64,000 nucleotides of DNA from the NCBI GenBank assembly GCA_025361565.1, contig JANYKN010000034.1, positions 1 through 64,000 of the forward strand, written 5' to 3'. A program made the position numbers and the translations under genes. The notes beneath the pieces are model-generated. The model was not told where the DNA came from and searched no databases. It was given only the letters and a program-made list of their open reading frames with translations. Shown piece after piece: positions 28,581 through 32,688 of the stretch. The stretch is from Bacteroidota bacterium (GTDB taxonomy: Bacteria; Bacteroidota; Bacteroidia; Bacteroidales; NBLH01). Position 1 is the first letter of the stretch; each line of letters starts with the position of its first letter.

Positions 28581-28606
28581 CTGTCAGGTTTTTCAAACTC
28601 TGACAG
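28581..28606. repeat. Left palindrome CTGTCAGGTTTTTCAAACTCTGACAG
   Basis: CTGTCAG-GTTT/AAAC-CTGACAG hairpin with a one-base bulge; same stem as 30421-30446. Confidence 0.85.
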
Positions 28607-28674
28607 ATTCCAGATAAAACATTCTTTAAAGTATAAGAGAACCTACAAACAGAAGATTCTTACCTTTGAGCAAA

Positions 28675-28842
28675 AGAGGATAAAGCAGCATATCAGTGCG
28701 ACCAATGGTGCATTGCTGCCCGTCTGACAGACTTGATCCAAAAGGTTTGATTTAAGTATTGATGAAAGCAAGTACCTTAATTCTTGCTATGCTCGTTTGG
28801 CAGGATAATATTAGCCATAATACCTTTTGTGCCTTATCCTCT
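28675..28842 (+). ncRNA. Candidate IS110 bridge RNA
   Basis: Closing stem AGAGGATAA (28675-28683)/TTATCCTCT (28834-28842), extended by GCA/TGC; internal stem-loops GCAGCA/TGCTGC (28685/28714), AGCAAG/CTTGCT (28767/28783), TGGC/GCCA (28798/28814); directly upstream of the transposase. Confidence 0.6.
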
Positions 28843-28868
28843 CATTCTAAAACAAAATTCATCTTCTT

Positions 28869-29504
28869 ATGACAAATGTAAAGAAAAAGAAAATTGCATC
28901 AAAAAAAGCAGTGCTTGAGCGCATTAAATTTAATGCAGCAGGGATTGATTTGAGTTCCCAAGACATGTATGTTGCAGTGATTGACAAGCCCGTAGTCAAA
29001 TTTTCCACCTTCACTTTTGGTATTAAAGAGTGTGTAAAATACCTGCAAACAGAAAACATCGGGTCTATTGCCATTGAAGCAACAGGGATTTATTGGTTCC
29101 CAATTTATGAAGCCCTCGAAGAAGTCGGATTTGAGATTTATATTGTAAATGGCCGGCATGCAAAAAATGTCCCAGGCCGGAAAACAGATGTCCTTGATTC
29201 TGAATGGCTGCGTGAATTGCACACTTACGGACTTTTGAGGGCATCCTTTATCCCAAAGGAAGAAATCAGAAAGTTGAGATATTATATGCGGCTGCGAAAA
29301 GACCACATAGCATCCAAAGCCGCATGTGTCAACCATGTGCAAAAAAAATTTAGATGCAATGAACATAAAACTCCACACAGTCATCAGCGACATCATGGGC
29401 GAAAGTGGGCAAAAGGTGGTAAGGGCAATTGCCAATGGCGAAACCTCGGCAGAAAAGCTTACCGGGCTGTGCAATGCCGATATGCAAAAACGAAAGGGCC
29501 CTGA
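28869..29504 (+). pseudogene. IS110 transposase, N-terminal DEDD part (frame-disrupted)
   Basis: GIDLSSQDMYVAVID...AIEATGIYWFPIYEAL...VNGRHAKNVPGRKTDVLDSEWLRELH; frame lost at A8 run 29341-29348. Confidence 0.88.
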
Positions 29505-30219
29505 AATATTAAAAGCCCTTGAAGGAAAGTTCAGAGAAGAGTATTTATTTGCACTTAACCAGGCATTGGACATTTATGATTTTTTCTTTGAAAAGATTAG
29601 GGCTTGCGATAATCAAATCGAAAACTTGCTGTTTACAATGACAAAGCAGAAAGAGGAACCTCATGATTTAAGTGCATCTAAAAGCATAAACCACAATATG
29701 CCTCAAATAAAGGATTTTCATTACCTGATGGTTAAATTGTCAGGAAATAAAGATGCTACATCAATTGCAGGCATAAATGATTATTCGTTTCTCCAGATTA
29801 TCTCTGAAACAGGATTGGATTTACAGGAAAAATGGTTAACCAACAGCCATTTTACTTCGTGGTTAGGTTTAGCGCCCCCTTTAAATAAATCAGGAAAAGG
29901 ACCAAGGCAAAAAAAGAAATTCAAGAGGCAAGTAAACAATGCAGGTGAGATTTTCAAACAAATAGCACAAAATGTTGGAAATGGAAAACATTGTGCTTTG
30001 TCGGGTTTTTACAAAAGGATAAAAGGACGCAGTGGTGCATCAATAGCAAATAAAGCAACAGCAAGAAAAATAGCAGTTTACTATTACGACTTAATGACTA
30101 AAGGTTTAAATTTTGTTGAAGAAGGTATTAAAAGGTATGAAGAACGTTACAAAGCCCAAAAGCTTAAATATTTGTTCAAACAAGCTCAAGAATTTGGATT
30201 TGAATTAGTTTGTGCCTGA
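29326..30219 (+). pseudogene. IS110 transposase, C-terminal (Transposase_20) part
   Basis: KKNLDAMNIKLHTVISDIMGESG...SIAGINDYSFLQIISETG...FTSWLGLAPPLNKSGKG, continuous with ORF1 in the +1 frame. Confidence 0.88.
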
Positions 30220-30333
30220 ATTTATCAATTAAACATAACCAAACCAATTCACAATTAGGGTTAGTGAATGGTTTGATATTGCAATCTTACGAATGAAGAT
30301 TGTTGATATGATATGTCCTGACTCAAAACTTAA

Positions 30334-30372
30334 ATTTTGATATAGTCTTAATACTTAAGACTATATCAAAAT
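30334..30372. repeat. Perfect 18-bp inverted repeat with 3-nt loop at the IS110 right side
   Basis: ATTTTGATATAGTCTTAA / TAC / TTAAGACTATATCAAAAT. Confidence 0.9.
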
Positions 30373-30420
30373 ACTTCTTTCAGACTGGATGGTTCTTTGG
30401 CAGGTTGGAGGATAGGTAAC

Positions 30421-30446
30421 CTGTCAGTGTGCATTGCACCTGACAG
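30421..30446. repeat. Right palindrome CTGTCAGTGTGCATTGCACCTGACAG
   Basis: CTGTCAG/CTGACAG and GTGC/GCAC stems with one T bulge; same outer stem and length as 28581-28606. Confidence 0.85.
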
Positions 30447-30567: not shown

Positions 30568-32688
30568 TTGAAAATAATGGCTAATTTACTTTTCGTCACA
30601 ATCGTTTTTGGCCTTACCCTAAACATCAATGCCCAACAAAAAATTGTTGTTAAAAATGTTGGTCATCAAAGTGTTGTAAAAAGCCTTGCCTTTAGTCCGG
30701 ATGGAAAATACCTTGCTGTTGGTGGCGATGACAATACAATTAAAGTTTGGGATTTACAAAATGGAAAACCCCTTACTGCTTTAAAACACAATGGTGCTAT
30801 TAATAGTGTTGCTTTTAGTTATGATGGAAAATATCTGGCATCGGGCAGCAATGATTCAACTATCAAAATATGGAATGCGCAAAATTGGATAGAAATACGT
30901 ACTCTGCCCAAAGAAAAATCTGCCATAAAAACAATTTCTTTCAATCCTGACGGAAAAATCCTTGCTTCAGGTGGTTATCAATCTATCAAACTATGGAATG
31001 TAAAAACCTGGAAAGAAATCCATTGCATTGCAGCACACACTTCTTATATATCAAGCATATCCTTTAGTTCCGATGGGAAGTACCTTGTTTCGGGAAGCGA
31101 AGATTGCAAAGTCAAGCTTTGGGATGTAAAAACCAAAGAAGAAGTGCGCAACATGGATGCAAATTCACAGTGGGTAAATTGTGTATCCTTTAGCCCTGAT
31201 TGCAAATATGTAGCTTTCGCCAGCTCAGATAAAACTATCGGATTGTGGAATTTCGAAAGCAAAAAGAAAAGTATTACAATTCTAAAACAAAATGGTATTG
31301 TTAAAAGCATAGCTTTCAGTCCCAATAGTAAATATTTGGCTTGCGGAGGTCTGGATAAAAAAATTAAACTTTGGGATATACAAGCCGGATATAGTTTACA
31401 TACTTTGGTGCAAAAGGTTGTTGTAAATAGTATTTCTTTTAGCCCTGATGGAAAATATATTGCCTCTGGCAACGACGATGGCTCAGTTGTTATTTGGGAA
31501 ACATCAACTGGCAATCAATTGATTACAATGATAGGAATGTTGTCAGATCAAAAGGATTGGATTGTATTTACTCCTTCCGGAAAGTATGACGGCATTAATT
31601 ATAACAAATATTTGAAAGGTGCTTCGGGTGCTCAGTTGAATGAACTTCCGACAAATGATGGCAATTATTTGTCGGGCATCCTTGCAGAAGTTTTTGGGCA
31701 TAAACAAGTGCAGCCTGATAGAACCCCGCCAACCATTACCATAAATTCTGAATTAAACTTTGAAGTTTCGCAAAATGAATATACGATTAGCGGCAAATCG
31801 ACAGACGAAAGCGGAGTATTATTGGTTTTGGTTAACAGATTAAAAGCGGATAATGATAGTGGAAGTTTTAGTTGTCAGGTTAATTTAAATGAAGGGCTTA
31901 ATACAATTCAAATCTATGCATACGATAAGTTTGGTAATATGAACAATAAAACCGTAACAATTACCTTTAAACCTTCTCTGCGAAAAGATTATGCGTTGAT
32001 ATTTTATGAAAGTGATTATACAACCAGTAACTTGCCAAACCTGAGAGGTACAAAAAAGAATGCAGATACTCTTTCAAGCATTTTGCAAAATAAATATGGA
32101 TTTGAAACACATGTTTTTCCAAATTATACAGCATTACAAATAGAAAAAACTTTGAGTAGATACAGCAAAAAGAGTTATTCACCCAATGACCAATTGTTGA
32201 TTTATTTTACAGGACACGGCCAAAAGGGAAATGCCGATACAACCGGTTATTTGTTGTGTGCCAATAACACTAAAATGACTCATAAAGAGTTTAATACATG
32301 GTCAGGAATAGATTCGTGTCAGCATATATTAATGGTTCTGGATGCTTGTTACAGTGGCTTGGGATTAAGTATAAATATGATTGGAGATACGCCGCCGCAA
32401 TATAATCCAAGAACAAAGGATGAATATCTGAAGGAATTATTCAAATTTAAGCCTGCACGAAAGGCTTTAACTTCGGGTGAAGGAAAAGTTTCCATACCAC
32501 TCGATGGTATTTCGGAATTTACTGAAGCTTTTATCCTTGCACTGAAAAAGAATGAAGGTAAATTATTTAATATACTTACTTATAACGAATTGAAAGCTAA
32601 ATTAGGGAATGATTATTTAAAATTAGAATCAGGGAAATTTTATAATGACGACGAATCGGATGGGACTTTTATTTTTATGAAAAAATGA
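30568..32688 (+). CDS. Exported seven-WD40-repeat protein fused to a caspase-like (peptidase C14) domain
   Basis: Signal peptide (LLFVTIVFGLTLNINAQ); seven FSPDGKYLASG...IKLWD repeats; C-terminal KDYALIFYES...LLIYFTGHGQKG (His) and ILMVLDACYSG (Cys) motifs. Confidence 0.93.
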   Translation: MKIMANLLFVTIVFGLTLNINAQQKIVVKNVGHQSVVKSLAFSPDGKYLAVGGDDNTIKVWDLQNGKPLTALKHNGAINSVAFSYDGKYLASGSNDSTIKIWNAQNWIEIRTLPKEKSAIKTISFNPDGKILASGGYQSIKLWNVKTWKEIHCIAAHTSYISSISFSSDGKYLVSGSEDCKVKLWDVKTKEEVRNMDANSQWVNCVSFSPDCKYVAFASSDKTIGLWNFESKKKSITILKQNGIVKSIAFSPNSKYLACGGLDKKIKLWDIQAGYSLHTLVQKVVVNSISFSPDGKYIASGNDDGSVVIWETSTGNQLITMIGMLSDQKDWIVFTPSGKYDGINYNKYLKGASGAQLNELPTNDGNYLSGILAEVFGHKQVQPDRTPPTITINSELNFEVSQNEYTISGKSTDESGVLLVLVNRLKADNDSGSFSCQVNLNEGLNTIQIYAYDKFGNMNNKTVTITFKPSLRKDYALIFYESDYTTSNLPNLRGTKKNADTLSSILQNKYGFETHVFPNYTALQIEKTLSRYSKKSYSPNDQLLIYFTGHGQKGNADTTGYLLCANNTKMTHKEFNTWSGIDSCQHILMVLDACYSGLGLSINMIGDTPPQYNPRTKDEYLKELFKFKPARKALTSGEGKVSIPLDGISEFTEAFILALKKNEGKLFNILTYNELKAKLGNDYLKLESGKFYNDDESDGTFIFMKK

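Follow-up and report, generated by a model that had tools for sequence, protein, structure and literature searches.

Sequence comparison points to a guide RNA upstream of the transposase in an IS110-family element of a Bacteroidota bacterium

The non-coding segment at positions 28675–28842 of the window (the whole 64,000-nt stretch of DNA from a Bacteroidota bacterium that was analysed) very probably encodes a guide RNA of the bridge/seek type for an IS110-family element, and the relatives of that element have transposases of about 450 aa. An earlier note on this DNA had proposed a bridge-RNA candidate in the 5' non-coding end of such an element, and the model search, covariation and guide matches described here bear out both the kind and the place of that candidate. 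By sequence comparison its architecture is an outer stem (P1) enclosing two loops, in each of which two unpaired strands lie between a short basal stem and a capped hairpin (Table 1). Work is under way to turn bridge RNAs into programmable tools for DNA insertion. In the parts of the literature covered here, most of what is published on their rules concerns IS621, ISEc21 and a small number of IS1111 elements. The rules of the family found in the window appear to differ: the 3' strands of the loops bear the left guides, the core is AG, the subterminal repeats are longer and the donor contact would be displaced.

Table 1. Features of the element, its insertion site and its candidate guide RNA (window positions; LE, left end; RE, right end)
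Feature	Position	Strand	Remark
Interrupted target, REP-like palindrome CTGTCAG..CTGACAG	28581..28606		element directly 3' of CTGACAG
Left-junction core AG	28605..28606		
IS110-family element, 1,797 bp	28607..30403	+	LE 262 nt, transposase, RE 184 nt
LE segment AAGTAT	28629..28634	+	identical to donor-loop 5' strand
LE copy of subterminal inverted repeat, AGAACC	28638..28643	+	
Bacteroidota-type -7 promoter box TACCTTTG (TAnnTTTG)	28661..28668	+	about 7 nt 5' of RNA
Candidate bridge/seek RNA	28675..28842	+	ends approximate, set by outer stem
P1, outer stem, 5' strand AGAGGATAA	28675..28683	+	3' strand TTATCCTCT, 28834-28842
P2, target-loop base stem, 5' strand	28692..28695	+	3' strand 28734-28737
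P3, target-loop tip hairpin, TGGTGC..GCCCG	28706..28722	+	bulged U
Left target guide TCTGACAG	28723..28730	+	target-loop 3' strand
P4, donor-loop base stem, 5' strand CAAAAGGT	28739..28746	+	3' strand ACCTTTTG, 28822-28829
Donor-loop 5' strand AAGTAT	28754..28759	+	matches LE interior
P5, donor-loop tip hairpin, TGATG..CTCG	28760..28795	+	contains AGCAAG/CTTGCT
Left donor guide TTTGGCAG	28796..28803	+	donor-loop 3' strand
Transposase, N-terminal part, DEDD_Tnp_IS110	28869..29504	+	PF01548, E 9e-17
Transposase, C-terminal part, Transposase_20	29326..30219	+	+1 frame; PF02371, E 1e-5
A8 run at frame break	29341..29348	+	
RE copy of subterminal inverted repeat, GGTTCT	30391..30396	+	
Right-junction core AG	30402..30403		
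Second REP-like palindrome	30421..30446		

The element, its ends and its insertion site

The transposase has the domains of the IS110 family (DEDD RuvC-like, and Transposase_20 with the SG motif), the IS110 residues D27/E70/D107/D110 are present in the alignment, and its PDB relatives are IS621 and ISCro4. Its start was correctly placed in the earlier note, and the frame is broken downstream at a run of eight A residues. A 63% identical relative (L025) has seven A residues at the same position and an open frame, and its transposase matches NF033542 (NCBIfam 'IS110 family RNA-guided transposase'). Judged by its reading frame, the window copy, the only one in the source genome, is probably inactive now unless slippage on the A8 run restores the frame. 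About 50 usable related elements came from class-wide and collection searches, and their transposases are roughly 35–63% identical and about 430–460 aa long; the viral contigs searched held mostly more distant IS110s. The source genome has a further transposase of the IS110 family (about 33% identical) that runs up to a contig edge at two places (G000 C36:2-670 and C189:2-670) and is probably a second multi-copy element.

The left end was placed by the guide match together with the target palindrome, and the right end of the element is TTTGGCAGG at 30396; as CAG is common to both element ends, the exact crossover point is ambiguous within these three nucleotides. Exact matches to the palindrome occur at 8 places in the element's own genome and 33 in a congener, and the reversed control pattern has none. 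Members of this REP-like family, AACCTGTCAG..CTGACAGGTT, are often paired 17–26 nt apart (G000 C18, C76, C108, C186 and others; G003). In congeners, where the locus was sought in its unoccupied form, the flanks are not conserved; paired palindromes elsewhere in the genome were used instead. Excision in silico leaves the two palindromes 17 nt apart, compared with 19 nt in an intact pair on C18 of the same genome, and deletion of 28607–30403 brings CTCTGACAG next to GTTG, as in that pair, whose uninterrupted sequence is CTCTGACAGGTTG. One relative is present in six identical copies in another genome (G046), where the right flanks diverge immediately past GGTAG and the left sides have only the target TCATCCTGAG in common; this comparison confirms that the ends lie at an AG core. 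Mapping by target palindromes, uninterrupted sister site and multi-copy relatives thus puts the candidate RNA inside the element, where the earlier note had supposed it to be.

Among the relatives the left end measures about 200–330 nt and the right end mostly 10–50 nt; that of L025 is also long, at about 210 nt. The unusually long right end in the window (184 nt) holds a palindrome, TTTTGATATAGTCTTAATACTTAAGACTATATCAAAA, at 30334–30372. In a Chlorobiaceae MAG (L054) the element's own left-end sequence follows directly after the right end, a tandem RE-AG-LE arrangement as expected for a circle junction. Next to the inserted element, the window encodes at 30568–32688 a 706-aa protein with WD40 repeats, the C-terminal part of which looks, by eye, like a caspase-type peptidase.

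Candidate guide strands and their matches in flanking and terminal DNA

The unpaired strands were set from structural anchors first and then compared with the flanks, with composition-matched shuffles as controls. In the window, the 3' strand of the target loop is identical to the left flank at 28599–28606 (8/8; the right arm of the palindrome, ending in AG) and the 3' strand of the donor loop is identical to the right end at 30396–30403 (8/8, again ending in AG). The same holds across 50 loci, in which the target-loop 3' strand scored 7.59 against the left flank, compared with 4.41 for shuffles (z 25.7), and the donor-loop 3' strand 7.38 against the right end, compared with 5.08 (z 17.7). Controls with the wrong strand or the wrong partner gave z 1.2–1.7, and cross-locus permutation (0/10000) agreed with the shuffle test; since some loci are close pairs, the cross-locus test is conservative. 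In both elements with a long right end the donor guide match lies more than 130 nt past the stop codon (30396 in the window, 1850 in L025). Taking the first AG past the hairpin as the core proved wrong for many relatives, and this rule was replaced by a core at guide positions 7–8.

This arrangement bears directly on the possibility of an ordinary bridge RNA of the IS621 type, in which left guides occupy the 5' side of each loop and right guides the 3' side. The earlier note had described the RNA as being of this type, and as to location, approximate length, two guide loops and an IS110-family transposase the likeness stands, but the guide order does not: in the window family it is the 3' strands that match the left flank and right end, whereas the 5' strands match neither (z 1.5 against shuffles, for the target-loop 5' strand with the left flank; z -1.1 by cross-locus permutation). 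A real IS621 copy from E. coli, read from the printed sequences, carries both of its corresponding strands on the 5' side, with ATCGGGCCT and ACAGTATC 5' of the hairpins, the first matching the target ATCAGGCCT and the second the right end. The IS621 guide order is therefore refuted for the window family unless our assignment of the tip hairpins is wrong, and we consider it very improbable. A guide RNA with its left guides on the 3' strands is the reading that we adopt.

The two 5' strands differed in what they matched. That of the donor loop corresponds, family-wide and on the same strand, to left-end DNA 16–36 nt inside the element (z 7.2, 0/400), and no such match was found in the left-end stretches neighbouring 16–36. 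For that of the target loop no right target guide was detected, also on retesting with the core at guide positions 7–8, so that a model of two guides per loop is half shown for the target; a match to left-end positions 40–75 (z 4.9) was set aside, its positions being scattered. Right flanks of the six-copy relative already differ at the first base (CGC, CGT, CTG, GAG), and the right side of the target may therefore be read loosely.

The ends of the element also share a subterminal inverted repeat (STIR). The last 4–18 nt of the right end recur inverted at left-end positions 28–52 (z 19.3 across the family), with no signal in the neighbouring left-end stretches. The repeat covaries, is 6–10 bp long (7–10 bp in most relatives, 6 bp in the window), and has its left-end copy about 31–41 nt inside.

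Covariation, strand and fold of the RNA

A covariance model (R2) trained without the window and without L025 matched 28666–28850 with 68.5 bits (E 1.6e-15; next best in the 64 kb, 0.22). The full model gave 43 further matches in untrained loci, 42 of them directly upstream of a transposase and on the same strand; matches upstream of transposases came from Bacteroidota, Proteobacteria, Cyanobacteria and others. A search of Rfam release 15 found nothing credible, and hence no curated RNA family. The promoter motif TAnnTTTG was present in the corresponding region of 6 of 23 relatives, compared with 0.56 expected.

Covariation was assessed on an alignment of 29 leaders. Unguided, RNAalifold recovered P2, P3 and P4, with double changes in 13 of 16 pairs. 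For P2–P5, 92.8% of cells were paired, compared with 78.7% after shuffling and at most 53.5% after sliding, and the four inner helices held 118 double-change cells against 41.6 in shuffles. Double changes were seen at all 4 pairs of P2 and at all 7 consensus pairs of P4, the best-covarying inner helix (own-versus-cross complementarity, z 12.7); P3 was paired in 100% of cells, with swaps between A-U and G-C and between U-A and C-G, and P5 in 99.1%. As P1 does not align in columns, it was tested by own-versus-cross complementarity over the 50 loci (10.51 versus 6.97, z 16.7, 0/10000); in L025 the change is compensatory, AAGGCAaTA pairing with TAaTGCCTT. The perfect 9-bp closing stem reported in the earlier note is thus present and maintained, and stem covariation among homologous elements, which that note had named as a check, is strong. 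Its account of the interior fared less evenly: of three stem-loops described, AGCAAG/CTTGCT is supported and forms the top of the donor-loop hairpin, relatives do not conserve GCAGCA/TGCTGC or TGGC/GCCA (the TGGC forming part of the donor guide), and P4 had been overlooked.

Intermediate cells were more often G-T than A-C (32 versus 11, p 0.001) and two hairpin-closing U-G pairs are nearly invariant across the sequences, which makes the plus (sense) strand the likely RNA. This bias, favouring the sense strand, also weighs against the idea that the segment is an antisense sRNA or a regulatory 5' UTR acting on translation of the transposase and has no guide role. There is a precedent for such control in ISPpu9, where a 244-nt tnp 5' UTR and the antisense sRNA Asr9 affect tnp translation (PMC8450116), yet a regulatory UTR has no reason to contain strands that vary in step with where each copy is inserted and with its right end. 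Regulation in place of guiding therefore seems to us very improbable, though the two roles are compatible and not exclusive. That a chance inverted repeat should lie beside an unrelated conserved leader has a negligible probability, for although a perfect 9-bp stem closing 100–240 nt arose in 6.9% of dinucleotide-shuffled left ends, this idea is refuted by the match of the window-free model and by the covariation.

The guide RNA that we propose was not conspicuous in the window sequence by itself: with the 6.9% shuffle rate just given and a fold z-score of only -2.28 for the segment, the single-sequence observation is weak, and it is the comparison with relatives that makes it strong. The inferred structure (-37.1 kcal/mol) is about 12 kcal/mol less stable in isolation than the minimum free energy fold (-49.4 kcal/mol), so that either binding of protein or DNA must stabilize it or the model misses contacts.

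Relation to known systems and a proposed mechanism

The IS621 bridge RNA (PMC11208160, PMC11208158) is likewise encoded ahead of the recombinase, within a long left end, has two loops, the first for the target and the second for the donor, includes the core dinucleotide within its guides and serves a REP-type target. Besides its 5'-side left guides, a guide order shared by ISEc21 (PMC11187229), IS621 differs from the window family in having a CT rather than an AG core, a recombinase of about 327 aa rather than about 450 aa, and a separate 5' stem-loop instead of a closing outer stem. The window element agrees with the IS110 group (IS621/ISEc21 type) in having a left end longer than the right with a long upstream non-coding region; in that group, however, the STIR is absent or 2–3 bp (2–3 bp in IS621), compared with 6–10 bp here. 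The IS1111 group (ISEc11, ISPa11, ISKpn4; PMC11187229) shows the converse mixture. Its seekRNAs have a reversed guide order, with the bottom-strand match 3' in the RNA as in the window family, and its STIRs are 7–17 bp long, compared with 7–10 bp in most relatives of the window element and 6 bp in the window itself. The IS1111 RNA, however, is downstream of tnp and its transposases are 330–350 aa, whereas in the window and in 42 of the 43 further model matches the RNA is upstream, with transposases of about 450 aa; nor was the preceding top-strand complement of IS1111 RNAs detected in the window family. An upstream RNA combined with reversed guide order is not described in the text of the two main papers, as distinct from a figure of six diverse RNAs. 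Similar in transposase length and upstream non-coding region is an IS110 subgroup with transposases of 395–455 aa (phylogeny in PMC11187229), for which the texts covered here, figures aside, describe no RNA.

Our current working model is that the RNA would be transcribed from the TACCTTTG box and bound by the transposase, and that its 3'-strand guides would pair with the bottom strands of target and donor, bringing the AG cores together for exchange, whereby insertion would fall in the CTGACAG arm of REP-like palindromes. A further pairing would join the donor-loop 5' strand to the left-end DNA next to the subterminal repeat. More tentatively, and with somewhat more doubt than confidence, we suggest that the family may represent a third and widespread design among RNA-guided IS110 recombinases, combining an upstream RNA, 3'-strand left guides, covarying 6–10-bp repeats flanking the donor and a displaced second donor guide. 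That second guide would read same-strand left-end DNA 20–30 nt inside the element and not core-adjacent DNA, which means that the RNA could link both ends of an integrated element and not just those at a circle junction. If the proposed function is true, the location of the RNA does not fix the guide order, the choice of target appears to depend mainly on about 7 nt to one side, and designs for reprogramming taken over from IS621 would not work on elements of the window type.

The comparison may also recast as candidate guide RNAs the sRNAs of ISPpu9, an IS110/IS492-type element of Pseudomonas putida that sits in REP sequences with an AG direct repeat and has a 244-nt tnp leader and sRNAs of about 180 nt (PMC8450116). 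These have been described in terms of antisense or sponge regulation and not as guide RNAs, and the abundant upstream sRNA is the antisense one (PMC8450116), a point against our reading of the window segment, given the similar ends of the two elements. A conserved 41-nt A box follows the AG of the ISPpu9 5' end and a 14-nt B box precedes the AG of its 3' end (PMC8450116); compared by description only, these boxes cover the same spans as the subterminal repeats of the window family. The sense sRNA Ssr9 of about 180 nt is flanked by A and B boxes and exists in orphan copies (PMC8450116), and by analogy it looks like a stand-alone guide-RNA cassette of a window-type element.
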